This document shows, one piece after another, positions 2,675-26,641 of a DNA stretch of 35,674 nucleotides; the first letter of the stretch is position 1; every line of letters starts with the position of its first letter. This stretch comes from Candidatus Babelota bacterium (GTDB lineage Bacteria > Babelota > Babeliae > Babelales > UASB340). The position numbers and the translations under genes are program-made. Below the pieces are notes generated by a model. It worked only from the letters and a program-made list of their open reading frames with translations. It searched no databases and was not told the DNA's origin. The DNA lies in NCBI GenBank assembly GCA_014730005.1, contig WJIY01000042.1:1-35674 (forward strand), written 5' to 3'.

Positions 2675-4864
2675 CTATCTAGCTTTAAGATTAGAAATTA
2701 AAAATTCTCTCAAAAATGTATTACGTTTTGTTCCTTTATTATTTTTAATACCCATGGCAATTGCTTTTGGTTGACCGATTAAAATACATAATTTTTTTGC
2801 TCTTGTAACTGCAGTATAGATTAAATTTCTTTGTAATAAAATAAAGTGTTGCATAAAGATTGGAATTATAACAGCACCAAATTCTGAGCCTTGACTTTTG
2901 TGAATTGATATAGCATATGAAAGTATAATTTCATCAAGTTCTGCAAAATCATATTCTAATATTCGATCTCCAAAATTTATAAATATTTTTTGATCGATAT
3001 GATTAATTTCATTAATTGTTCCAAGGTCTCCATTAAATATAAATTTATCATAATTATTTCTAATCTGCATTACTCGATCCCCAAGTCTGTAAACTTGTCC
3101 AAAACGGGAAATTTGTTTACAGTTTGTTGTTTCTGGATTTAGGATTGATTGGAGTTCTTGGTTTATTCTTTGTGTACCTACAATGCCTCGATTCATAGGA
3201 GTTAGAACAACGCAATTACTTGGTAAAATATTATATTTTGTAAGAGTTGTTTTATAAATTTTATGTAAAATAGAAAAAGTATTTTCGGCATTGTCTTCTT
3301 TTATATAAAAAAAATCTTTTTTTTTACAAATATTTGAAGATGTTGGAAATTCACCTTTATTAATTTTATGCGCATTTACAATAATTAAACTATTTTGTGC
3401 TTGCCTAAATATTTGTGTGAGTTTAGTTGTTGGAATGATTTGAGAACTTATAAAGTCATTTAAAATGTTTCCTGCTCCTACAGAGGGTAATTGATCAATA
3501 TCTCCAAGAAATACAACGTGTGCTTTTAATGGGATAGCTTTAAGTAATGCGTGCATCAAAAAAACATCTATCATTGATGCTTCATCAACAATTAGAAAAT
3601 CTAAATCAAGAGCATTTTGTTCGTTTTTATTAAAATTCATTATTGTTGGATTAAATTCTAGTAAACGGTGTAATGTTTCTGTATTATAACCTGTTCCCTC
3701 AAACATTCTTTTTGCAGCACGACCGGTTGGTGCTGCAAGTTTGAATTTAAAATTATATTTATTTAACACTTCTAACAATTTTTTTATCAGCGTAGTTTTA
3801 CCTGTACCGGGTCCGCCAGTTATTATTGTTACCTTTTTTTGTAAGCAAGAAAGAATTCCTTTTTGTTGTTCTTCATTTAATTGAACAGAATTAGAATCTG
3901 GTTTTTTTATTTGATTATAAATTTCTTGAAGATTTAAATTAAAGTTAGTTTTTTGGGAAATTAAGCATTCAATTTTTTTCGAGATACCTATTTCTGAAAA
4001 ATAATATTGAGGTAAAGATATAAAATGTTTTTCATTATAAGTAATTAGTTTTATTTTTTCTTCATTATAAAGTTCGGTAAGTGCTTTTTTTATTAAATTT
4101 TCATGTTCATTGTTTTGTTCAAGTTCAAGTATTTTGATAACAGATGTTTTTACAGTTTCAACTTCTAAATATAAATGTCCATTACCACAAGCTTGCGTGA
4201 TTGAATATAAAATTCCTGATTTTATTCTTTTAATTGATTTTTTATCTAAGCCTAATTTTAAGGCTAGAGTATCAGCACTTTTAAAACCAATTCCCCATAT
4301 ATCTTCAACAAGTTTATATGGATTTTGCTGTATTTTATTTAATGATTCTTTGCCATACGTTTTGTATATTTTAACAGCGAATGACGTTGGAATATCACGT
4401 GATTTTAAAAATACCATGACCTTTGAAATTTCTTTTTGATCATGCCAAGCATTTTTTATAGCAGTTACGCGATGAGGTCCAACACCATCAACCAAAGCTA
4501 ATTTTTCAGGTTCTTTGTCAATTATTTCTAGCGTTTGTTCTCCAAATTTTTCAACAAGACGTTTTGCAAATTTTGGACCAATTCCTTTGATTAAGCCAGA
4601 TGCAAGATATTTTTGTATTCCTATAATTGAGTTTGGAAGTTGTGTAGTACATTCTTGAGCTATAAATTGACGTCCATATTTTTTATGAAAAGACCATTTG
4701 CCTTGTAATGTTACATTTTCACCTTGATGTATTTGTGGAAGGAAGCCTTGAATTATAATAGATTGTTTTGAATTTATTTTTAAAGAAAAAACAGAAAATC
4801 CATTTTCTTGATTTTTGTAAATTTGTTTTTCAATTGTTCCACAAAGTTCAACTAATTTTTCCAT
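2675..4864 (-). CDS. recD2: RecD2-type SF1B ATP-dependent DNA helicase
   Basis: 5'-3' DNA helicase of the RecD2/RecD-like family, found in bacteria without a RecBC partner and linked to replication-fork repair. The N-terminal region has an OB-like part (1-75) and three helix-hairpin-helix units (GIGPKFAKRLVEKFG near 94-108, VDGVGPHRVTAI near 125-136, GIGFKSADTLALKLG near 191-205). Helicase motifs are intact: Walker A GGPGTGKTT (350-358), GRAAKRM (381-387), Walker B DEAS (427-430), motif III GDIDQLPSVGAG (454-465), a Q-I-F-R motif IV (484-487) and motif VI YTAVTRAKK (683-691). The 729 residues match the family. No recB or recC is present here. It is first in the recD2-bioY-PBP operon and starts just after a strong hairpin. 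Confidence 0.94.
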   Translation of the reverse strand: MEKLVELCGTIEKQIYKNQENGFSVFSLKINSKQSIIIQGFLPQIHQGENVTLQGKWSFHKKYGRQFIAQECTTQLPNSIIGIQKYLASGLIKGIGPKFAKRLVEKFGEQTLEIIDKEPEKLALVDGVGPHRVTAIKNAWHDQKEISKVMVFLKSRDIPTSFAVKIYKTYGKESLNKIQQNPYKLVEDIWGIGFKSADTLALKLGLDKKSIKRIKSGILYSITQACGNGHLYLEVETVKTSVIKILELEQNNEHENLIKKALTELYNEEKIKLITYNEKHFISLPQYYFSEIGISKKIECLISQKTNFNLNLQEIYNQIKKPDSNSVQLNEEQQKGILSCLQKKVTIITGGPGTGKTTLIKKLLEVLNKYNFKFKLAAPTGRAAKRMFEGTGYNTETLHRLLEFNPTIMNFNKNEQNALDLDFLIVDEASMIDVFLMHALLKAIPLKAHVVFLGDIDQLPSVGAGNILNDFISSQIIPTTKLTQIFRQAQNSLIIVNAHKINKGEFPTSSNICKKKDFFYIKEDNAENTFSILHKIYKTTLTKYNILPSNCVVLTPMNRGIVGTQRINQELQSILNPETTNCKQISRFGQVYRLGDRVMQIRNNYDKFIFNGDLGTINEINHIDQKIFINFGDRILEYDFAELDEIILSYAISIHKSQGSEFGAVIIPIFMQHFILLQRNLIYTAVTRAKKLCILIGQPKAIAMGIKNNKGTKRNTFLREFLISNLKAR

Positions 4865-4885
4865 GTTTATGCTTTGGCTTGTTTT

Positions 4886-4925
4886 ATAAATTAATGGCCG
4901 TTCACATGAACGGCCATTAATTTAT
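4886..4925 (-). terminator. Perfect 19-bp hairpin between two minus-strand genes
   Basis: A 19-bp perfect inverted repeat (core AATGGCCGTTCA / TGAACGGCCATT) with a 2-4 nt loop lies between the end of the exported-protein gene (4945) and the recD2 start (4864). Its GGCCGTT core stands out in this AT-rich sequence. It probably ends transcription of the 4945-5625 gene, although no clean U tract follows on the minus strand; it could instead be a processing or stability hairpin in the recD2 leader. Confidence 0.5.
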
Positions 4926-4944
4926 TTTAAAAAACTTTCAAATT

Positions 4945-5625
4945 TTATTTTTTCTTATTTTTTAATTGTTTTGCTAAATCTTCAGCTTTTTGTGCAACCT
5001 CATTAGAAAGATTATTTGTTATTGTTCCACAAATTCTTATAAATTCATCACATAATTGAAGAACTTTTTCTTTATTATCAAGTTTTTGATCAAAAAATTT
5101 ATAACAGGAATTGGTTATAATTTCTTTTTCTAATTTTTCCTTTTTTTCTTTAGGTATATTTGGATTAGAATATTGCTGGTTTTTTTCTTTTTCTGATTGA
5201 ATAATTGGTTCAATTTCTTGGAAAAAATTGCAACATATAAAATCAGTATTAGGATTTTTAGTATTATCTGAATCAAGAAGTTTTGGCAAAAAGTTTGAAA
5301 TAGTTCCAAATGAATAAAAAACTGTGAATAAGCTTTTTGCTGGTATTAAGATTTGCTTTTTAAATTTATCTAAATTTGTTATAGAATCATCATTTAAAAG
5401 TTTATTTTCAACCTTTTGCGATGATTGTAATGTTGCTTTTATTCTGACAATTAATGAAGCATTTTGTTTTAAAAATTGATTAAGGATGTTTTTTTCTGAA
5501 TCAGACAGTTTTTGTATCCTGGTCAATGTTTCTTCCTCTTGTTTTTTTGCATATTGTGGTACGTTGAAGCATAATAAGAATAGAAAAAATACAAACATTT
5601 TGTTTAAAAAAATATTTTTTTTCAT
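4945..5625 (-). CDS. Exported helical protein of unknown function
   Basis: A Sec signal peptide is visible: KK-rich start, a hydrophobic run FVFFLFLLCF and a likely cleavage near residue 26 (VPQYAKK). The 200-residue mature part is charged, lysine- and glutamate-rich and mostly helical by composition, with two adjacent cysteines near the middle (FICCNFF) and further cysteines near the end (NSCYKFF, QLCDEF, RICGT), so disulfides in the periplasm are possible. No known domain was recognised. The start is supported by AAGGAAAC upstream. It follows the predicted beta-barrel gene (start 7174, end 5711) by 85 bp on the same strand and may be co-transcribed with it. Confidence 0.72.
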   Translation of the reverse strand: MKKNIFLNKMFVFFLFLLCFNVPQYAKKQEEETLTRIQKLSDSEKNILNQFLKQNASLIVRIKATLQSSQKVENKLLNDDSITNLDKFKKQILIPAKSLFTVFYSFGTISNFLPKLLDSDNTKNPNTDFICCNFFQEIEPIIQSEKEKNQQYSNPNIPKEKKEKLEKEIITNSCYKFFDQKLDNKEKVLQLCDEFIRICGTITNNLSNEVAQKAEDLAKQLKNKKK

Positions 5626-5710
5626 ATCTTGTTTCCTTCTTTATAAAATAGTTTAATTTTTTTTATATAAATCTATAAGAATTATAATCTACCAAATGAT
5701 TTCTTTTTAA

Positions 5711-7174
5711 TCAAAACGAACCTCCTATTCGAATAAATATGGTCCAATCATTACCCATATTTTTAGCTGAAAATGTATAATCACCTCCCAACGCTGTAAC
5801 AAGTTTCCAATTTTTTTGTGATTTACTATAATTAATTTCTCCAAAAATCTTATGTTGTTGTGCGTTGATTAATTCTGCATCACTTAATCGAAGAGTATTT
5901 GGATCAATGTTTTCTGTGTAAATTTTTTCGATATGTTCTTCTTGTTGTCCATAATAATCATATCCTATTCCGAATCCTATGTTTTTACCTGGTTCAAATG
6001 TGGCATTTAAAACATAATTAATAATTGAACCTGGCTTTACTGATACGCGATACGGTGGAGGGAAAATATATTGTTTAATAAATTCTGTTCGTCCTTCAGA
6101 AGAACTTATAACATTCAAAAAATTTGCTAAATCTTGTGCTGGTGGCGGAATAGTTTGTGCTGAAAGGATTAAACGGTCTTCTTGAGCTGTAAAAAAGTTA
6201 TCAAAAGATATTCTATTCCAAAGTTGTATTGCATCATGAAATAAATCAACTTTAGCCTCCATATAACAACCCAACCCAAAATGGCCACCATTGCCAATTC
6301 GAGGATTTATCAAATTATCTCGAATGCTATATAAAACTGTTGGCAAATCATCTTCAAAATTCTCCAGATTAATTGAATAACTTTGTAATCTTGGAATACT
6401 AGAAATTATGCTTGTTGGTACAATTCCTTCAAATCCAATGTCCATTTGAAAATTGCTCATATTTAAAGTATTTAGTCCTAATTTTAAGCGAGTATCTCCC
6501 ATTCCAAATTTGGTTTTGTAAAATTCTTTTGTATCTAAAGAGTCGCCTGTCTCTGAAAATAAACTTTTTAAACGATTTTGCTCTTTTTGAGTCAACCAAA
6601 AATTTCTTTCTGCAAATTGAAGCGATGTATTTAATTGAAAAATAAATGGACCGCTATAGAAACCGCCTTGAATTAAGGCGCCTGCTTTTCGTTCTTGTAA
6701 TGTAAAATTTTTAAATAAAGGGATAACACTTGATGCTTCTTGAGAAGTTAACGATTTATTTAATGCTTTAATAAATTCTTCTAGAGCAGGTTGATTTATT
6801 TCTAGATTAAAAATTTCATTTGGCCGCATAGCCATATCATCTGTATAATTATAAAAAATGTTAAATACTAAACCTCCATATTCGATTGCATTTAATCTTT
6901 GTGGAATAAGATATAAAGCATCTCTGCCTCGCGGTGGTTTTGTTATTAACCATAAAGGCGCTTCTATTTTTTGAACGGCTTGCATTAATGTATTAAAATC
7001 TATACCACCGTTACTTCGAGTTTCAAGTTCTAGATCATCTAAATCTAAATTGGAATAATCTATTACTTCTTCAAAATCATTATTGTTTGCTTCTTGAGCA
7101 TAGAGGAAGAAAGAAGAATTAAAATTTAAGATTAATAAAAATATAGCTAAATAAAATTTATAAGATAGCTTCAT
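5711..7174 (-). CDS. Predicted outer-membrane beta-barrel protein
   Basis: 487 residues with a signal peptide (hydrophobic FYLAIFLLILNF, likely cleavage after FFLYA near residue 26). An acidic N-terminal linker follows, containing DYSNLDLDDL at 39-48. The remainder alternates polar and aromatic residues in strand-like patterns and ends in FIRIGGSF, a terminal Phe typical of BAM-folded barrels. Several segments look like amphipathic strands (GFGIGYDYYG, KLVTALGGDYTF). No specific porin family was recognised; the protein is consistent with lineage-specific surface proteins. The DYSNLDL motif recurs in the unrelated membrane protein encoded at 25452-25856. Transcription probably starts in the divergent region to its right. 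Confidence 0.7.
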   Translation of the reverse strand: MKLSYKFYLAIFLLILNFNSSFFLYAQEANNNDFEEVIDYSNLDLDDLELETRSNGGIDFNTLMQAVQKIEAPLWLITKPPRGRDALYLIPQRLNAIEYGGLVFNIFYNYTDDMAMRPNEIFNLEINQPALEEFIKALNKSLTSQEASSVIPLFKNFTLQERKAGALIQGGFYSGPFIFQLNTSLQFAERNFWLTQKEQNRLKSLFSETGDSLDTKEFYKTKFGMGDTRLKLGLNTLNMSNFQMDIGFEGIVPTSIISSIPRLQSYSINLENFEDDLPTVLYSIRDNLINPRIGNGGHFGLGCYMEAKVDLFHDAIQLWNRISFDNFFTAQEDRLILSAQTIPPPAQDLANFLNVISSSEGRTEFIKQYIFPPPYRVSVKPGSIINYVLNATFEPGKNIGFGIGYDYYGQQEEHIEKIYTENIDPNTLRLSDAELINAQQHKIFGEINYSKSQKNWKLVTALGGDYTFSAKNMGNDWTIFIRIGGSF

Positions 7175-12286: not shown

Positions 12287-12327
12287 TTATAATGTTTAAA
12301 CTGATTTTAAACATTATAATTTTTTTT
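12287..12327 (+). terminator. Rho-independent terminator facing bamA
   Basis: A 14-bp perfect stem (TTATAATGTTTAAA 12287-12300 / TTTAAACATTATAA 12306-12319) with a 5-nt loop is followed directly by eight Ts (12320-12327). The T tract overlaps the bamA stop codon, which lies on the other strand. It should end plus-strand transcripts from the atp cluster and prevent antisense transcription of bamA. Confidence 0.7.
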
Positions 12328-14779
12328 ACCATGCATAATTCATACTTAAATGGAATTCATGTGGTGATTCACCGGCTTTTTTATTTCGATCAAGTTTGTA
12401 TCCCCAATCAATTTTTGCAGGTGTTGGTTTTAAAAGATTTAAACCAAATCCAACAGAATGTCTTAAATTAAATTTATCACGCATAATATTATTAACATTA
12501 ACGTCTCCATATTTTGGTGTATCCCATCCAGCTCCCGCATCATAAAAGACATGTCCTTTCATGGAATAATCTGGAATCAATGGAAAAACAAGTTCAGCAT
12601 TAAATTGGATTGCATGCCTACCACCTAAAGGATCTCCTGTTTGCCATGCAGGTCCAATACTTCCCCAGACAAAACCACGTACAGTATTTTGTCCTCCCAT
12701 ATGAAAAAGTTCTTTGTATGGTATAATTTTTTTCTTTTTATTTTTTGGATCCGTATCTCCAAGCGAGTATATTGTACCTGCTTTACCATGTAAAACTAAT
12801 ACTAATGAATCCTCACCAATTAAGGCATTGTACCAGCTTGTATCAAATTCAATTTTCATAAAGCTGTATTCTTGATTTATAAAAGGTGGAGCAATTTTTG
12901 TATTTAATATAATTTTGTATCCTTTGCTAGGATAAATTTGATGATTTCGTGTATCTTTAATTAAATCTATACCTGTCCAAAAAAGAGTTCCACGTTGAAA
13001 TGTTCTATTAACTATAGGTGTAAGTTGTTCTTTATAATTTCCAGTTGCTATCGGATTATTATTTTCTATATCTTCCACACCAAACTCTAGTAAAAGTTGT
13101 AGACGTTTATCAATTTCTGGCAATTGAAATCCAAATCTAATATTACCGCCAGTTACAGTTTCTTTTGGTGTTTTATTAACATTTTTCCATTGATCATATT
13201 CGTCCCATCTTCTATAAAAATTAAGACCACCCGATACATCTGTATCAAATATGCTTGGATCAAAAAAATGGAATTCGACTTTTTTGAATTGATGTCGATT
13301 TGCTTGCACCATCAAACCGGTATCCCAACCCATTCCAAGAAGGTTTTTCTTTTCAACAGTTAATGTTCCTCTTAAAGATGGTTGAGCTGTATTTTTATCG
13401 CTACCATATGTTAGTCCAGCTTGCAGATTTCCGGTTTTTGTTTCTTTTATATTCATTTCTAAATCAACTTTATCTTCAGAGATTCTATGCATTTTCCAAT
13501 TGACTCCGCCCCTTTCAAAAAAACTTAGATATTCAACGTTGGATTTAGATTGTGATAATTTTTTGGATGTAATAAGATCACCTTCGGCTATATCTAATTG
13601 TCTTCTGATAACTTTATCATGTGTGTTTTTATTTCCAGTAATATTGATTCGATTTACATATAACTTTTTACCTTTTTCTACATAAAAAGTTATATCTACA
13701 ATATTGGTTATTTCATTTGGTTTTATTTGTGGATACACATCAGCATAAATATAACCTTTATTTCCATATAAATTTTTAATATTATTTATCGATTCCACAA
13801 GTTTAGTTTGAGAATATGGATTATTTTCTTCAAGTGTTACGTAGTGCAATAATTCTTGCTCGCTAAAAAACTCATCTCCAATAGCTTCGAGTTTTCCAAC
13901 GGTAAAAAGATCACCCTCTTTTATGTAAAAAGTTATAATTATATCGCGTTCGTTCTTAGAAAATTCTACTTTGGCATCTACAACAGTAGCCATAAGGTAC
14001 CCATGATCTTTATAAAAGTATTCTATTCTATGTTTATCTAATTCAAGGGCATCTTCTTGAAATTCTCCTGCTTCGTCAATAAAGTTTAGCAACCAGTCTT
14101 CACGTGTAAAAATAATTGTTCTTAATTTTCTGTCGGGTATATGTTCATTTCCTTTAAAATAAACTCTAGCGATTCTCGATGGTAACCCTTCTTTTATTAT
14201 TATAAGAGCCGTAGCTTTATCTGGAACTTGAGGATTTGGAATTATTTCAGTTTTGATTTCTACTTTATGATAATTTTCTTTTGCATACATTTTTTTAATG
14301 CCTATTGATATGCGGTGTAATACTTCATCATCTATTGTTGTAAGTTTATCCAGGTTTAATTCTTCCTTTATAGTTTTGGTTTTTATTGCTTTATTTCCTT
14401 GAATTTCAATTTTTTCTATTAACTTATTTTCTTCTACTTTTACATATAAGTTTATTGTATTTGAATCTAATTCTTCGGTTTTAATTTTAACTTGATTGAA
14501 ATATCCGAGTTGTAAAATATTTTTGATAGCTTGGCCTGTTAATGATTTATCGAATTTTTCATTTTCTTTATATGGAATTCTATTAAGTATAACTTCATTA
14601 TTTATATATTTATTTCCCATTATTATTATTTTATTTATAACAGGATTATCTGATTTTTTGACAGACTCATCTTGTAAATTTTCTTCAGATTTAAAATCTT
14701 CAGATAAGATTTCAATAGGTAATACAAAAATACTAAACAAAAATATGACGCTAATTTTTTTAAAAACTTTTTTAAACAT
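12326..14779 (-). CDS. bamA: BamA outer-membrane protein assembly factor (Omp85)
   Basis: Core of the machine that folds beta-barrel proteins into the outer membrane. The start at 14779 is chosen over an ATG 69 bp upstream because GGAG lies 6 nt before it and a normal signal peptide follows (FKKISVIFLFSIFVLP, cleavage near EILS). Five POTRA domains can be traced at about residues 47-117, 121-197, 201-288, 293-369 and 373-447, each with the usual G-N-x-x-I element (IMGNKYI, IQGNKAI, FKGNEHI, EAIGDEF, ITGNKNT). The 16-strand barrel covers about 450-817, with loop 6 motif NTVRGF near 699-703 and a terminal aromatic residue (SMNYAW). The 817 residues are normal. It implies a diderm envelope. No skp or lpx neighbours are present. 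Confidence 0.95.
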   Translation of the reverse strand: MFKKVFKKISVIFLFSIFVLPIEILSEDFKSEENLQDESVKKSDNPVINKIIIMGNKYINNEVILNRIPYKENEKFDKSLTGQAIKNILQLGYFNQVKIKTEELDSNTINLYVKVEENKLIEKIEIQGNKAIKTKTIKEELNLDKLTTIDDEVLHRISIGIKKMYAKENYHKVEIKTEIIPNPQVPDKATALIIIKEGLPSRIARVYFKGNEHIPDRKLRTIIFTREDWLLNFIDEAGEFQEDALELDKHRIEYFYKDHGYLMATVVDAKVEFSKNERDIIITFYIKEGDLFTVGKLEAIGDEFFSEQELLHYVTLEENNPYSQTKLVESINNIKNLYGNKGYIYADVYPQIKPNEITNIVDITFYVEKGKKLYVNRINITGNKNTHDKVIRRQLDIAEGDLITSKKLSQSKSNVEYLSFFERGGVNWKMHRISEDKVDLEMNIKETKTGNLQAGLTYGSDKNTAQPSLRGTLTVEKKNLLGMGWDTGLMVQANRHQFKKVEFHFFDPSIFDTDVSGGLNFYRRWDEYDQWKNVNKTPKETVTGGNIRFGFQLPEIDKRLQLLLEFGVEDIENNNPIATGNYKEQLTPIVNRTFQRGTLFWTGIDLIKDTRNHQIYPSKGYKIILNTKIAPPFINQEYSFMKIEFDTSWYNALIGEDSLVLVLHGKAGTIYSLGDTDPKNKKKKIIPYKELFHMGGQNTVRGFVWGSIGPAWQTGDPLGGRHAIQFNAELVFPLIPDYSMKGHVFYDAGAGWDTPKYGDVNVNNIMRDKFNLRHSVGFGLNLLKPTPAKIDWGYKLDRNKKAGESPHEFHLSMNYAW

Positions 14780-14846
14780 TATTTTCTCCAAACTACTCGA
14801 ACATGTTTTCATGTAGGCATTAGGAAAATAGAATACAATTTTGAGC

Positions 14847-14865
14847 AAAAAAAGCTATGCTTTTT
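14847..14865 (-). terminator. Small hairpin with U tract after the lipase-like gene
   Basis: Read on the minus strand, AAAAAGC-ATA-GCTTTTTTT forms a 7-bp stem with a 3-nt loop running straight into a T tract, about 45 bp after the stop of the 14908-16413 gene. It lies between that gene and bamA, so it would separate the two transcripts, although the stem is short and A/T-rich. Confidence 0.4.
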
Positions 14866-14907: not shown

Positions 14908-16413
14908 TTATAAACAACTACTATGTTTTTTTATTATGTTAAATTCAGTGGATGAAGAAACATCTTCGGGTTTCCATACAAAAAATTTTGTTTTGATTTC
15001 ATTTAATGTAGATATTGGTATTGAAATTTTGTCTTCAACTAATAATTTATTATGTTGAAAAACATATAATTTCATTTTTTTATCTGAAAAATTTATATTT
15101 ATATCAATGTCATCGAAATTATTTTTTAATTTTTTTATCATGTTTAAAAATATTGGTGTTAATACAACAATAGGCAGTGGATTTAAATAATCTTCATTTT
15201 CCCATGATGCAAACCAGAGTTCTTTATGTGTTGGATCTAGGTTTTTACGTTTAAAAGAGAAAAAACTTGACCAAAAGCTAGCGGTAGGTTGATTTGTTGT
15301 AAAAGTTTTGTTCAAATTTTTGTGAATATTGGGACGGAACATTATTTTTGCTTGAATAATTTTAGGAAAGCCTGTTTTATTTTTTTTATCTAATAAAATA
15401 TCAAGTAAATTAAAGCGATTAAAACTATATCTTTTTTTTGTAGAAATCCAGTCTATTTTTTGCACAAAATCTTCATCTGAATAAAAATTGAAGACATTTT
15501 TGAAAGTGTTATCAAAAATAAAAGGTTCAGTTTCTTGTTGAATGGGCGTTCCTAATAATACAAGTTCATCGATTACTAATTCGTTGTTGTTTGGTATATA
15601 ATCAAAATTTTTTTGACTGGAGTTTTTATAAGTATGTTCTAACGGTTTATTAGGTAATTGTTTTATTATTTGATAAATATTAATTAAAGAGTCGTATTCA
15701 TCGTTGTTTTTTGCAATTATTTTGAGTGTTTCTGGATTATTTAAATTTTTAATGACGTTTTTAATTCCTGCCAAGTTTAATGCTAAGTTGCCTCCATGAC
15801 TGTGACATATGATTCTTATTTTTGGATTAATTCCTTTTTGTTTATATTTTTCAATTTCTTTGCTTAATTGATTATAGAACCTTATTGCTTCTTTACGGCG
15901 ACGTTGTTGACTGATTAATCCACTCCAACCAAATGTATAAAAATTATTATTTTCGGAGGATATATTTATAGAATTTAAAAAAAAATCATAAGATTTTGCA
16001 ATTGGATATACAACATATTTTTTATTTCCGATTGAATTAAGATCAAATGTTGGAGCAAACTTTATTAAACCTTTTTGGAGCATTGGTTGACTTTTATAAA
16101 AGTAATCATCGTTTCGTACTTTGTTTACTAATTTTTTATAGTTGGTTCCTGAAATGTTATCTTGAATAACTTCCACGACGTTTAATAAACCTAAAAGACA
16201 TCCAAAGGTTCCATGTGTAAAAATGGTTATCCATTCTTCAGATTGTTCCGGTTTAGAAATTTTTCCTTTTTTAAAGATAATTTCCGACTTATATAAGAAA
16301 ATGTAAATAGAAAATAAAGTAGTCATACATATTAAAACTATCGATATTATATATATTAGTGGACGCCTTTTTTTTGATTGATTTTCTTTATCTTCATTTT
16401 TTTCATTTTTCAT
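14908..16413 (-). CDS. Membrane-anchored alpha/beta-hydrolase (lipase-like)
   Basis: A charged N terminus, one membrane anchor (about 19-41) and a long presumably periplasmic domain. ITIFTHGTFG (63-71) resembles the HG oxyanion-hole motif of lipases. CHSHGGNLAL (203-212) is a nucleophile elbow with Ser205; the usual first Gly of G-x-S-x-G is replaced by Cys-His. ELVLLGTPIQ (283-292) matches the strand and GTP turn after the elbow in many lipases, and YSDEDFVQ (311-318) is a good site for the catalytic Asp. The catalytic His would be in the last third (candidates in NIHKNL or PTHKEL). The family resembles DUF676/PGAP1-like serine esterases, but the substrate is unknown. 501 residues; it lies upstream of bamA on the same strand. 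Confidence 0.68.
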   Translation of the reverse strand: MKNEKNEDKENQSKKRRPLIYIISIVLICMTTLFSIYIFLYKSEIIFKKGKISKPEQSEEWITIFTHGTFGCLLGLLNVVEVIQDNISGTNYKKLVNKVRNDDYFYKSQPMLQKGLIKFAPTFDLNSIGNKKYVVYPIAKSYDFFLNSINISSENNNFYTFGWSGLISQQRRRKEAIRFYNQLSKEIEKYKQKGINPKIRIICHSHGGNLALNLAGIKNVIKNLNNPETLKIIAKNNDEYDSLINIYQIIKQLPNKPLEHTYKNSSQKNFDYIPNNNELVIDELVLLGTPIQQETEPFIFDNTFKNVFNFYSDEDFVQKIDWISTKKRYSFNRFNLLDILLDKKNKTGFPKIIQAKIMFRPNIHKNLNKTFTTNQPTASFWSSFFSFKRKNLDPTHKELWFASWENEDYLNPLPIVVLTPIFLNMIKKLKNNFDDIDININFSDKKMKLYVFQHNKLLVEDKISIPISTLNEIKTKFFVWKPEDVSSSTEFNIIKKHSSCL

Positions 16414-23777: not shown

Positions 23778-25358
23778 CTATTCAAGAGTTATTATTTTTT
23801 GGTCCATTTTTGCAGGAATTTTTAGATTTAAATATTTCAAAATTGTAGGGGCTATGTTTGCGAGGCCAAATTTTGGTTTTTTATATTTTTTAGATGTCTT
23901 TTTATTTTCATAGTATTTGTTGATCAACATAAATATTACAGGATTAGTGGTATGAGAAGTTTTATATTTATTTTTCATTTCTTCAGCATTACCATGATCT
24001 GCTGTAATAAAAATTGTTCCATTTTGTTTTTCAATCACTTCTTTATATAATTTTTCTAATTGAATATCTAAAAATTCACATGCTTTTTTTGTTGCTGCAA
24101 AATTTCCAGAGTGTCCCACCATATCTGGATTTGCGTAATTAACTAAATAAAAATATGCAGGATCTTTTTTTAATGAATCTAAAATATGATTAGTAATCTT
24201 TTGTGCAGACATTTCTGGATTATCAATATAATTTTTAGTTTTTATTGATGGTATTAGCGTGTATTTTTCATTAGGAAGTTTTTTTTCTTTTCTTCCTCTA
24301 AAAAAATAAGTTACGTGTGCATATTTTTCAGTTTCTGCAATGATGTAAACTTTTTTATTGGTTTGTTTTGATATCTCATCTAAAAGCGTATTTTCTATTT
24401 TTTCTTTTTCAAAAATAATATCATTATCGAATTTAGAAAATTCATTTTTGTATCTAGTAGTGGTTATAAAAAAAGAAAGTGTTCCTTTAGTTGAATTAAG
24501 ATTTTTGACTTTAAATTCATTAAAATTCGGATCAATGAAACATCGAGTTAGTTGTCTTGCTCTATCTGGCCTAAAATTGAAAAATATTATTCCATCCCCT
24601 TTTTCAATTATACCATCAGAAATTAATCGTATTGGTTTTAAAAATTCGTCAGTGTTTTTTTGTTTGTAGGAATTTTCTAGGGCTGCTTGCCATGTTAAAT
24701 TTTTTAAATTTTTATTTTGATTACTACATAAAATATCATAACTTTGTTTTGTTCTATTCCAGTTTTTATCTCTATCCATTGCATAAAATCTACCATGTAA
24801 AGATGCAATTTTTCCTAAATTTAATTTATTGCAAAAATCTTGTAATTTTTGTAGATATTGGCGTGCAGATTTTGGAGCAGTATCTCTTCCATCTAAAAAT
24901 GTATGAATGTAAACTTTTTTAAGTCCAATTTTTTTAGCAAGCTTTATTAATGCATATAGGTGTTTTTCATGACTATGGATTCCCGCGTCTGATAGCAATC
25001 CCATAAGATGTAATGCATGATTATTTTTTTTTTTTAATTTTTCAAAATTTTTAATTAATAGTTTGTTTTTAAAAAAATCACCATTTTTTATTGATTCATT
25101 AAATTTTTTTAAGATTGTTTTTACAATTCTACCACTTCCAATACAAGTATGCCCTACTTCTGAATTACCCATATATTTTTTAGGTAAACCAACAGCTTCT
25201 CCAGATGCTTTTAATAAACAATTTGGATATTTTTGTAACCAATTTTTAAAATTAGGCATGTTGGCAGCCGCAACGGCGTTTCCTTCTTTTTGTCTTGAAT
25301 ATCCAAAACCATCTAAAATTATTAGTAGATTCGGTCTTTTTTTATCATTTTTTGTCAT
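23778..25358 (-). CDS. gpmI: 2,3-bisphosphoglycerate-independent phosphoglycerate mutase
   Basis: Interconverts 3- and 2-phosphoglycerate in lower glycolysis, using two Mn ions. The alkaline-phosphatase-like fold is evident: LLIILDGFG (11-19, metal-binding Asp16), GNSEVGH (64-70, nucleophile Ser66), FLDGRDTAP, GRFYAMDRD, FFNFRPDRARQ, NPDMVGHSGN and TADHGNAEEM near the end with the second set of metal ligands. 526 residues, slightly above the usual 510. The start has AAGGAAATAC before it. It is convergent with groEL and divergent from the small membrane protein gene at 25452. Confidence 0.97.
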   Translation of the reverse strand: MTKNDKKRPNLLIILDGFGYSRQKEGNAVAAANMPNFKNWLQKYPNCLLKASGEAVGLPKKYMGNSEVGHTCIGSGRIVKTILKKFNESIKNGDFFKNKLLIKNFEKLKKKNNHALHLMGLLSDAGIHSHEKHLYALIKLAKKIGLKKVYIHTFLDGRDTAPKSARQYLQKLQDFCNKLNLGKIASLHGRFYAMDRDKNWNRTKQSYDILCSNQNKNLKNLTWQAALENSYKQKNTDEFLKPIRLISDGIIEKGDGIIFFNFRPDRARQLTRCFIDPNFNEFKVKNLNSTKGTLSFFITTTRYKNEFSKFDNDIIFEKEKIENTLLDEISKQTNKKVYIIAETEKYAHVTYFFRGRKEKKLPNEKYTLIPSIKTKNYIDNPEMSAQKITNHILDSLKKDPAYFYLVNYANPDMVGHSGNFAATKKACEFLDIQLEKLYKEVIEKQNGTIFITADHGNAEEMKNKYKTSHTTNPVIFMLINKYYENKKTSKKYKKPKFGLANIAPTILKYLNLKIPAKMDQKIITLE

Positions 25359-25451: not shown

Positions 25452-25856
25452 ATGTTTAAAAATAATTTTAAATTTATTTTTATTTTTTTATTTATTTTTT
25501 ATACAACTGGGTTTTGTGTTTCCTCTGATTTAGATTCTTTAATTGAGAGTGGGGAAACAATAGATTTTTGTGAAGAAGAGAAGAACTCTATAGATGTTTC
25601 AAACTTTGAAGAAACGAAAGATGTTTTTGAAGAACAAGATTATGATGAGGAGGAAGAGCTTGATTATAGTAATTTGGACTTAAATGATTTATCTGAATCA
25701 GAAGATATAAAGCTTACAACCAAAAATAAAATATATTTTGCTTTACAATATTTAAAGTATCATGTTAAAGAAAATGTTAAGTGGTATTTAACTTATTTAT
25801 TAATTGGTTCTACTACTGCCATGTGTATTATTTATAAATTAAAACGCAAAAAATGA
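25452..25856 (+). CDS. Small acidic bitopic membrane protein of unknown function
   Basis: 134 residues. An N-terminal hydrophobic segment (about 7-24, signal peptide or anchor) is followed by a very acidic region (about 27-88) and a C-terminal membrane helix (about 111-128) ending in a positive tail KLKRKK, which favours a cytoplasmic C terminus. The acidic part contains DYSNLDLNDL (71-80), nearly identical to DYSNLDLDDL in the predicted barrel protein encoded at 5711-7174. The stop overlaps the rsmE start (ATGA), so the two are translationally coupled. No known family was recognised. Confidence 0.66.
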   Translation: MFKNNFKFIFIFLFIFYTTGFCVSSDLDSLIESGETIDFCEEEKNSIDVSNFEETKDVFEEQDYDEEEELDYSNLDLNDLSESEDIKLTTKNKIYFALQYLKYHVKENVKWYLTYLLIGSTTAMCIIYKLKRKK

Positions 25857-26641
25857 TAAATACTTCAACGAAAAACAATAAACATTTTTTTTCAATTTTT
25901 GTATCTGATCTTTCGAATTTAATTCAAGGATGTATTAATAACCAAATTATTATTTGCGACAAACGTTTGTATAAACGATTAATTTCTGTTTTGCGATTAA
26001 AGCCTAATGATTATTTTATTTTGTTTGATTATCAATACAATATAATTTTTTCTTTAGATAAAAAGACATTTGAAAATAAAAAATGTATTTGTGCAAATTT
26101 GATACAACAAAAACGAAATAAGCCATTTAATACTGAAATTATTTTTTGTCCTGCCCTTTTGAAAAAGAGCTCATTTGAGAATATTATTTATTTTTCGGCT
26201 CAAATGGGAGCAACAAAAATTATTCCTGTTTTGACAGAAAAAGTTCAAAGAAAATTTGAAGGTGAAAAAGAGCGACAGAGATTAGAAAAAATTATTATTT
26301 CAGCTTGCGAGCAATCAAAAAATTTTAATGTGCCAGAATTGTGTGGAGCTTTGAATTTAAAAAAAATTTTTAAAAAAATAGAAGAAGAAGAATCTAAAAA
26401 TTCAAAAAAGGTATTATTTGATTATTCCGGTAGCCCATTAATTATGTTACTTAATGAGATCCATAATGAAAAAACAATAAAAGTTTTTATATTAATTGGA
26501 CCTGAAGGTGACTTTACTACTTCTGAGATTTCTTTAATAAGAGAAAATAATTTTAAATTATATAAATTAACCCCAACTATTTTAAGATCAACACAGGCAG
26601 CCGCTGTAGGATTGGGAAGTATTAGAAGTGTTGCAGATTAG
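25853..26641 (+). CDS. rsmE: RsmE 16S rRNA m3U1498 methyltransferase
   Basis: SAM-dependent SPOUT methyltransferase acting on U1498 of 16S rRNA in the 30S subunit. An N-terminal PUA-like part (about 10-85, HFFSIFVSDL to a VLRLKPND element) precedes the knotted domain: ACEQSKNFNVP (151-161), LIGPEGDFTTSEI (214-226) and ILRSTQAAAVGLGSI (243-257). The last block normally reads LRTETA; here Glu is Gln. 262 residues, normal. It shares an ATGA overlap with the preceding gene, and its stop overlaps the stop of tsaB on the other strand by 3 bp. Confidence 0.92.
   Translation: MINTSTKNNKHFFSIFVSDLSNLIQGCINNQIIICDKRLYKRLISVLRLKPNDYFILFDYQYNIIFSLDKKTFENKKCICANLIQQKRNKPFNTEIIFCPALLKKSSFENIIYFSAQMGATKIIPVLTEKVQRKFEGEKERQRLEKIIISACEQSKNFNVPELCGALNLKKIFKKIEEEESKNSKKVLFDYSGSPLIMLLNEIHNEKTIKVFILIGPEGDFTTSEISLIRENNFKLYKLTPTILRSTQAAAVGLGSIRSVAD

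Follow-up and report, generated by a model that had tools for sequence, protein, structure and literature searches.

A near-identical acidic peptide in a predicted FapF-like barrel and a small exported protein of a Dependentiae genome: a possible periplasmic docking handle

Related systems and how the locus compares

TonB boxes are common to receptors and colicins. The activity of a TonB box depends more on its local structure than on individual side chains, and changes in its sequence are tolerated (PMC11658791). A second point of reference is FapF, a 12-stranded plugged barrel in which a disordered N-terminal linker lies before the plug helix and regulation of the plug may fall to the periplasmic domain (PMC5557850). 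In Bacteroidota, lipoproteins are sorted by an export signal that consists of a handful of acidic residues at the N-terminus of the mature protein (PMC12578637). Similar motifs in two proteins are also known from the bacterial amyloid-signalling pairs (BASS), which are encoded by adjacent genes (PMC8086366).

The window discussed here, that is the whole stretch of DNA that was analysed (35,674 nucleotides), is one contig (C30) of the source genome G000, which comprises 1.15 Mb in 58 contigs and is 94.6% complete; the other genome labels (G001, G002, G014 etc.) denote relatives. Two exported proteins encoded on this contig carry peptides that are identical at nine of ten positions: DYSNLDLDDL, residues 39-48 of a predicted barrel protein (7031-7060, reverse strand), and DYSNLDLNDL, residues 71-80 of a small protein (25662-25691, forward strand). 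The coordinates, strands and residue numbers given for both peptides in the original prediction proved correct when re-read from the window. On the left side the match extends weakly, the barrel protein having EEVIDYSNLDLDDL and the small protein EEELDYSNLDLNDL.

Like a TonB box, the barrel's copy is short, mixes acidic with hydrophobic residues and sits in a disordered stretch of the periplasmic part ahead of a possible plug, and it is common to otherwise unrelated proteins, as TonB boxes are in proteins that use one energiser. The likeness has limits, as the barrel is FapF-like, no Pfam plug or barrel domain of TonB-dependent receptors was found in it or in 29 relatives, the second carrier is the cell's own membrane-anchored protein, and binding is hypothetical here. 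The Bacteroidota export signal is similar in relying on a few acidic residues, but it acts on lipidated cysteines and belongs to another phylum, whereas the two proteins described here are not lipoproteins by sequence and their motif is longer and private to the pair.

The barrel protein and its neighborhood

The barrel protein (5711-7174, reverse strand) is 487 aa long and ends in a C-terminal F. According to its translation, its AlphaFold model (pLDDT 84, pTM 0.80) and Foldseek, it consists of a signal peptide, an acidic disordered segment up to about residue 56, a short helix (residues 60-67) and a beta-barrel that starts at residue 100. Residues 22-56, the motif included, are disordered in the model (pLDDT ~40), and this acidic segment directly precedes the short helix, which lies ahead of the first strand and may possibly act as a plug.

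The best PDB matches of the model are FapF (5o65, 5o67 and 5o68) and the COG4313 channel 4rl8, the top 20 Foldseek matches having E 9e-12, probability 1.00 and a TM (target) of ~0.7. The fold is therefore predicted to be FapF/COG4313-like, as judged from the best structural match, although the identity with these structures is only 8-10%, with a TM-score of 0.42-0.44 by query length; both are 12-stranded channels, and a strand number for the barrel would rest on this likeness. The linker and plug helix of FapF resemble the disordered segment and helix 60-67 of the barrel protein. Unlike FapF, the model lacks an N-terminal trimeric coiled coil, since residues 22-56 are disordered and followed by one short helix, and no amyloid operon is seen at the barrel locus.

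None of 30 family members (the barrel protein and 29 relatives) has a Pfam match, the family is without an NCBIfam assignment, and no credible PDB profile match was obtained for the barrel sequence. The family is order-wide in Dependentiae, being found by tblastn in 44 of 49 genomes, a count that depends on the sensitivity of tblastn. All of the named relatives belong to Candidatus Babeliales / Dependentiae (TM6) and the remainder are metagenome bins, with no plasmid-borne relatives found.

The gene order barrel, exported protein of 190-250 aa and recD2-like helicase (2675-7174 in the window) is kept in several of the relatives examined. The middle gene encodes 226 aa here (4945-5625, reverse strand), and its product does not reach the threshold for any Pfam match and shows an NPIxxxR-like stretch that recurs. 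Further along the window, 14908-16413 encodes a protein that is anchored in the membrane and weakly resembles lipases (Lipase_3 E 0.045, short of the cut-off).

The small exported protein

The second carrier is 134 aa long (25452-25856, forward strand). On the basis of translation, synteny and a structure model, it is composed of a signal peptide, an acidic segment, an amphipathic helix (88-107), a TM helix (109-133) and a KRKK tail; the model agrees with both helices but is uncertain over the acidic part (pLDDT ~50-60). The signal peptide together with the C-terminal TM helix and the KRKK tail make it likely that the acidic segment is periplasmic. Thus, the initial description of both peptides as lying in acidic, disordered segments that face the periplasm holds for the barrel protein and is likely for the small one.

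Neither convincing tblastn relatives nor a database family were found for the small protein, so its orthologues were sought by synteny with rsmE. Two genes served as anchors, one that we take from its sequence and established knowledge to be an rsmE-like 16S rRNA methyltransferase gene (25853-26641, forward strand), and one on the other side that is presumably, on the same grounds, a gpmI-like phosphoglycerate mutase gene (23778-25358, reverse strand). Most relatives have, directly upstream of rsmE and often also next to gpmI, a gene whose product is similarly organized, with a signal peptide and an acidic segment; in the closer relatives these are followed by an amphipathic helix, a TM helix and a basic tail. 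The stop codon of the small gene overlaps the rsmE start by 4 bp in an ATGA (25853-25856), which suggests that the two genes may be translationally coupled; short overlaps recur in several relatives.

Exported proteins of Dependentiae are enriched in orphans (PMC6561590). Elsewhere in the source genome (contig C56, L003:181-1794), one exported protein has a ubiquitin-specific-protease-like core (GIKNLGNTCYFNSTLQC...) and, from its sequence, is likely a host-directed effector. In genome G032, about six exported proteins that are paralogues of each other are encoded in tandem (L126:228-7616; QGFDFLRTQNLIDTTFHDFLEQNVSHDE...).

Non-random similarity of the two peptides

Among the 29 proteins of the window, the two peptides are the sole pair of 10-mers with at least nine identities. 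The same comparison of a sample of 194 proteins (62,228 residues, about a fifth of the genome) gave other pairs at this level only from evident paralogues or from one P-type ATPase motif, and the barrel linker otherwise matched these proteins at no more than 6/10. When the two linkers were shuffled, the best score in 3000 trials was 7/10. Shuffling all window proteins in 20-residue blocks yielded at least one 9/10 pair in 9 of 927 runs, and whole-protein shuffles did so in 9 of 734; these counts correspond to p ~0.01, with the look-elsewhere effect included. The near-identity pointed out in the original prediction thus exceeds what chance would give. The match is real and improbable by chance, even though it was chosen from many impressions gained by eye.

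Acidity across the families and resemblance within genomes

In the first 45 mature residues, the barrel family has a net charge of -8.3 versus -1.0 in other exported proteins, with signal peptides called by a simple hydrophobicity rule. In the small family, the acidic patch is usually located 47-66 residues from the C-terminus. The fit of this family to the barrel motif is order-wide about that of its own composition (median p 0.36), so that composition and not sequence is conserved across the order. An order-wide motif derived by EM from the barrel N-termini was rejected for a related reason, because its apparent enrichment in the small family is mostly explained by acidic-region shuffles, which match nearly as well as the real sequences. 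What is constant in both families is an acidic, K/R-poor, disordered segment dotted with hydrophobic residues, with no fixed word.

In several genomes, the two segments are nevertheless alike, each time in a different sequence. In G014 the barrel protein has DDGMPDLEELDL and the small protein DDGMPDFDINQL, and DDGMPD occurs genome-wide in that pair only. The G002 pair is IEDINLDLENI and IEEINIDVEDI, and a pattern built from this pair matches only there genome-wide. The G049 pair reads ISLDDIMAYEE and IDLDDLSSLED, and the G050 pair FIGLDEIPLDVI and FDVLDDIDIDII. In G001, which belongs to the same family and to another genus, FDEISFDDLE of the barrel protein and LDSLDFSDLS of the small protein align by eye with the peptides of the source genome (consensus xx[NES][LI][DS][LF][DNS]DL[ES]), but the automatic test scored this pair low; indeed, it found no resemblance between the two segments in many genomes (G001, G004, G019, G020 and G044).

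Permutation of within- versus between-genome similarity, with the discovery pair left out, gave p 0.003-0.04 depending on the test (10-27 genomes), and p 0.12-0.21 when the genomes that had prompted the idea of covariation were also dropped. Five of the available relatives are from the same family, all of them in other genera, and in one of the comparisons, which includes the G049 and G050 pairs, the segment borders were set by hand. Covariation of the two segments within genomes is therefore suggestive, not proven.

Alternative explanations

The nearest rival to a docking handle is that selection acts only to keep the segments acidic, K/R-poor and disordered, whether for export efficiency, solubility, spacing or fuzzy electrostatic contacts, and that the ten-residue likeness is a rare coincidence. 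We give this explanation considerable weight, although short of even odds. It agrees with a composition that is by itself common order-wide, with the exact motif being present in 0 of 48 relatives, with the hold-out values for covariation, and with a window-level chance of ~1% for a finding picked from many that were read by eye. Moreover, Sec export has been suggested to benefit when the first part of the mature protein carries no net charge or a negative one, according to a statement of PMC2638155 that cites Kajava et al. On the other hand, linkers shuffled with their own composition did not exceed 7/10, and G014, G002, G049 and G050 supply further matched pairs. In addition, the motif of the small protein lies ~50 residues past the signal peptide, so that a role of charge in export does not explain it.

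Direct homotypic contact between the two peptides, tethering the inner and outer membranes in the manner of amyloid-signalling motifs, appears improbable. Like motifs in two proteins per genome, in several sequence families, do resemble BASS (PMC8086366), but four aspartates per ten residues would disfavor stacking at neutral pH and the two genes lie apart, whereas BASS pairs are encoded side by side. A cleavage site common to both proteins and recognized by one periplasmic protease would fit a peptide that is short, acidic and, as the models portray it, disordered, and that occurs in two exported proteins; since no protease is linked to either gene, there is little to recommend this option either.

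The original prediction had favored a broader role, namely a motif by which exported proteins are recognized by BAM, a chaperone or another common factor. In line with such a signal, both carriers are exported, and in the barrel protein the segment comes after the signal peptide. However, DYSNLDL occurs genome-wide in these two proteins only, apart from a weaker DYSNFDF, which was discarded as a third carrier because it is a poorer match and sits inside a ubiquitin-protease-like protein. The looser pattern D[YF]xNLD[LIFMV][DN][DN]L likewise retrieves the same two proteins from the whole genome, with 0 matches for a control pattern. The motif is not found in the other predicted OMPs of the genome, including the Omp85/BamA protein at 12326-14848, and enrichment after signal peptides is not apparent, as the other exported proteins (216) attain PSSM 6 within the first 45 mature residues in only ~2% of cases. 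With two carriers in the genome and none among 48 relatives, the proteome-wide claim fails and a general OMP-targeting, BAM or chaperone signal is very improbable, while a motif private to the pair is unaffected.

Recent DNA copying or gene conversion between the two genes would account for a near identity confined to one genome, but it is the least likely explanation and is ruled out by the codons, which are the same at five of the nine identical residues against 5.6 expected from codon usage (the sum of per-residue values), one of the differences being TCC versus AGT for Ser. Because the synonymous codons are as different as random ones, the similarity is held, or has arisen, at the protein level, which leaves room for an older copy followed by selection on the protein.

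A proposed docking handle for one periplasmic partner

The likeness to TonB boxes and the presence of TonB/Tol genes in the genome favor a docking handle for one periplasmic partner. On this reading, to which we assign a probability of about 0.4, the peptide would be used for docking much as a TonB box is, in a form specific to the lineage, and the small protein would be a second client, tethered to the membrane, or a competitor. Once exported, the barrel protein would keep its segment of alternating hydrophobic and acidic residues in the periplasm, just ahead of the helix that may act as a plug, while the small protein would present the near-identical peptide on a flexible arm fixed to the inner membrane. 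A single periplasmic partner could then receive both peptides in one groove, whether jointly or competitively, and this putative partner would gate, place or assemble the barrel. If the preference of the partner drifted across lineages, the peptide would differ from genome to genome while the two proteins stayed matched within each genome.

As for the partner, the source genome has a gene for a TonB-like protein that includes the TonB C-terminal domain (contig C35, L170:694-1719; TonB_C E 3e-8, TonB_2 E 1e-9) and a cluster of ftsH, TolB-like propeller, TolA-like, TolR and TolQ genes (contig C54, L172:137-5464). Given these TonB-like and TolQ/TolR/TolA-like genes, the C-terminal domain of a TonB/TolA-like energiser is one candidate partner, by analogy and at rather long odds. 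The conserved 226-aa neighbor of the barrel protein is another candidate, by adjacency only; it was rejected as a basic partner, being weakly basic in the genomes compared (+1 to +6, one -4).

Significance

The Dependentiae live in dependence on hosts, and the biology of their envelope is barely known. The most extended form of the docking proposal, which we consider unlikely as a whole, is a matched-handle system in these bacteria: an outer membrane FapF-like channel and an inner membrane-anchored protein would share a fast-drifting acidic peptide, and a periplasmic partner common to both, perhaps a TonB/TolA-like energiser, would hold the two copies in step within each lineage and gate or place the channel. 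If true, matched handles would tie an order-wide outer membrane channel to an order-wide protein anchored in the inner membrane, both of them without a Pfam family, and the peptide could serve as bait for the partner that they share. Such handles would, in addition, exemplify a linear motif of the bacterial periplasm evolving in step in two unrelated proteins.
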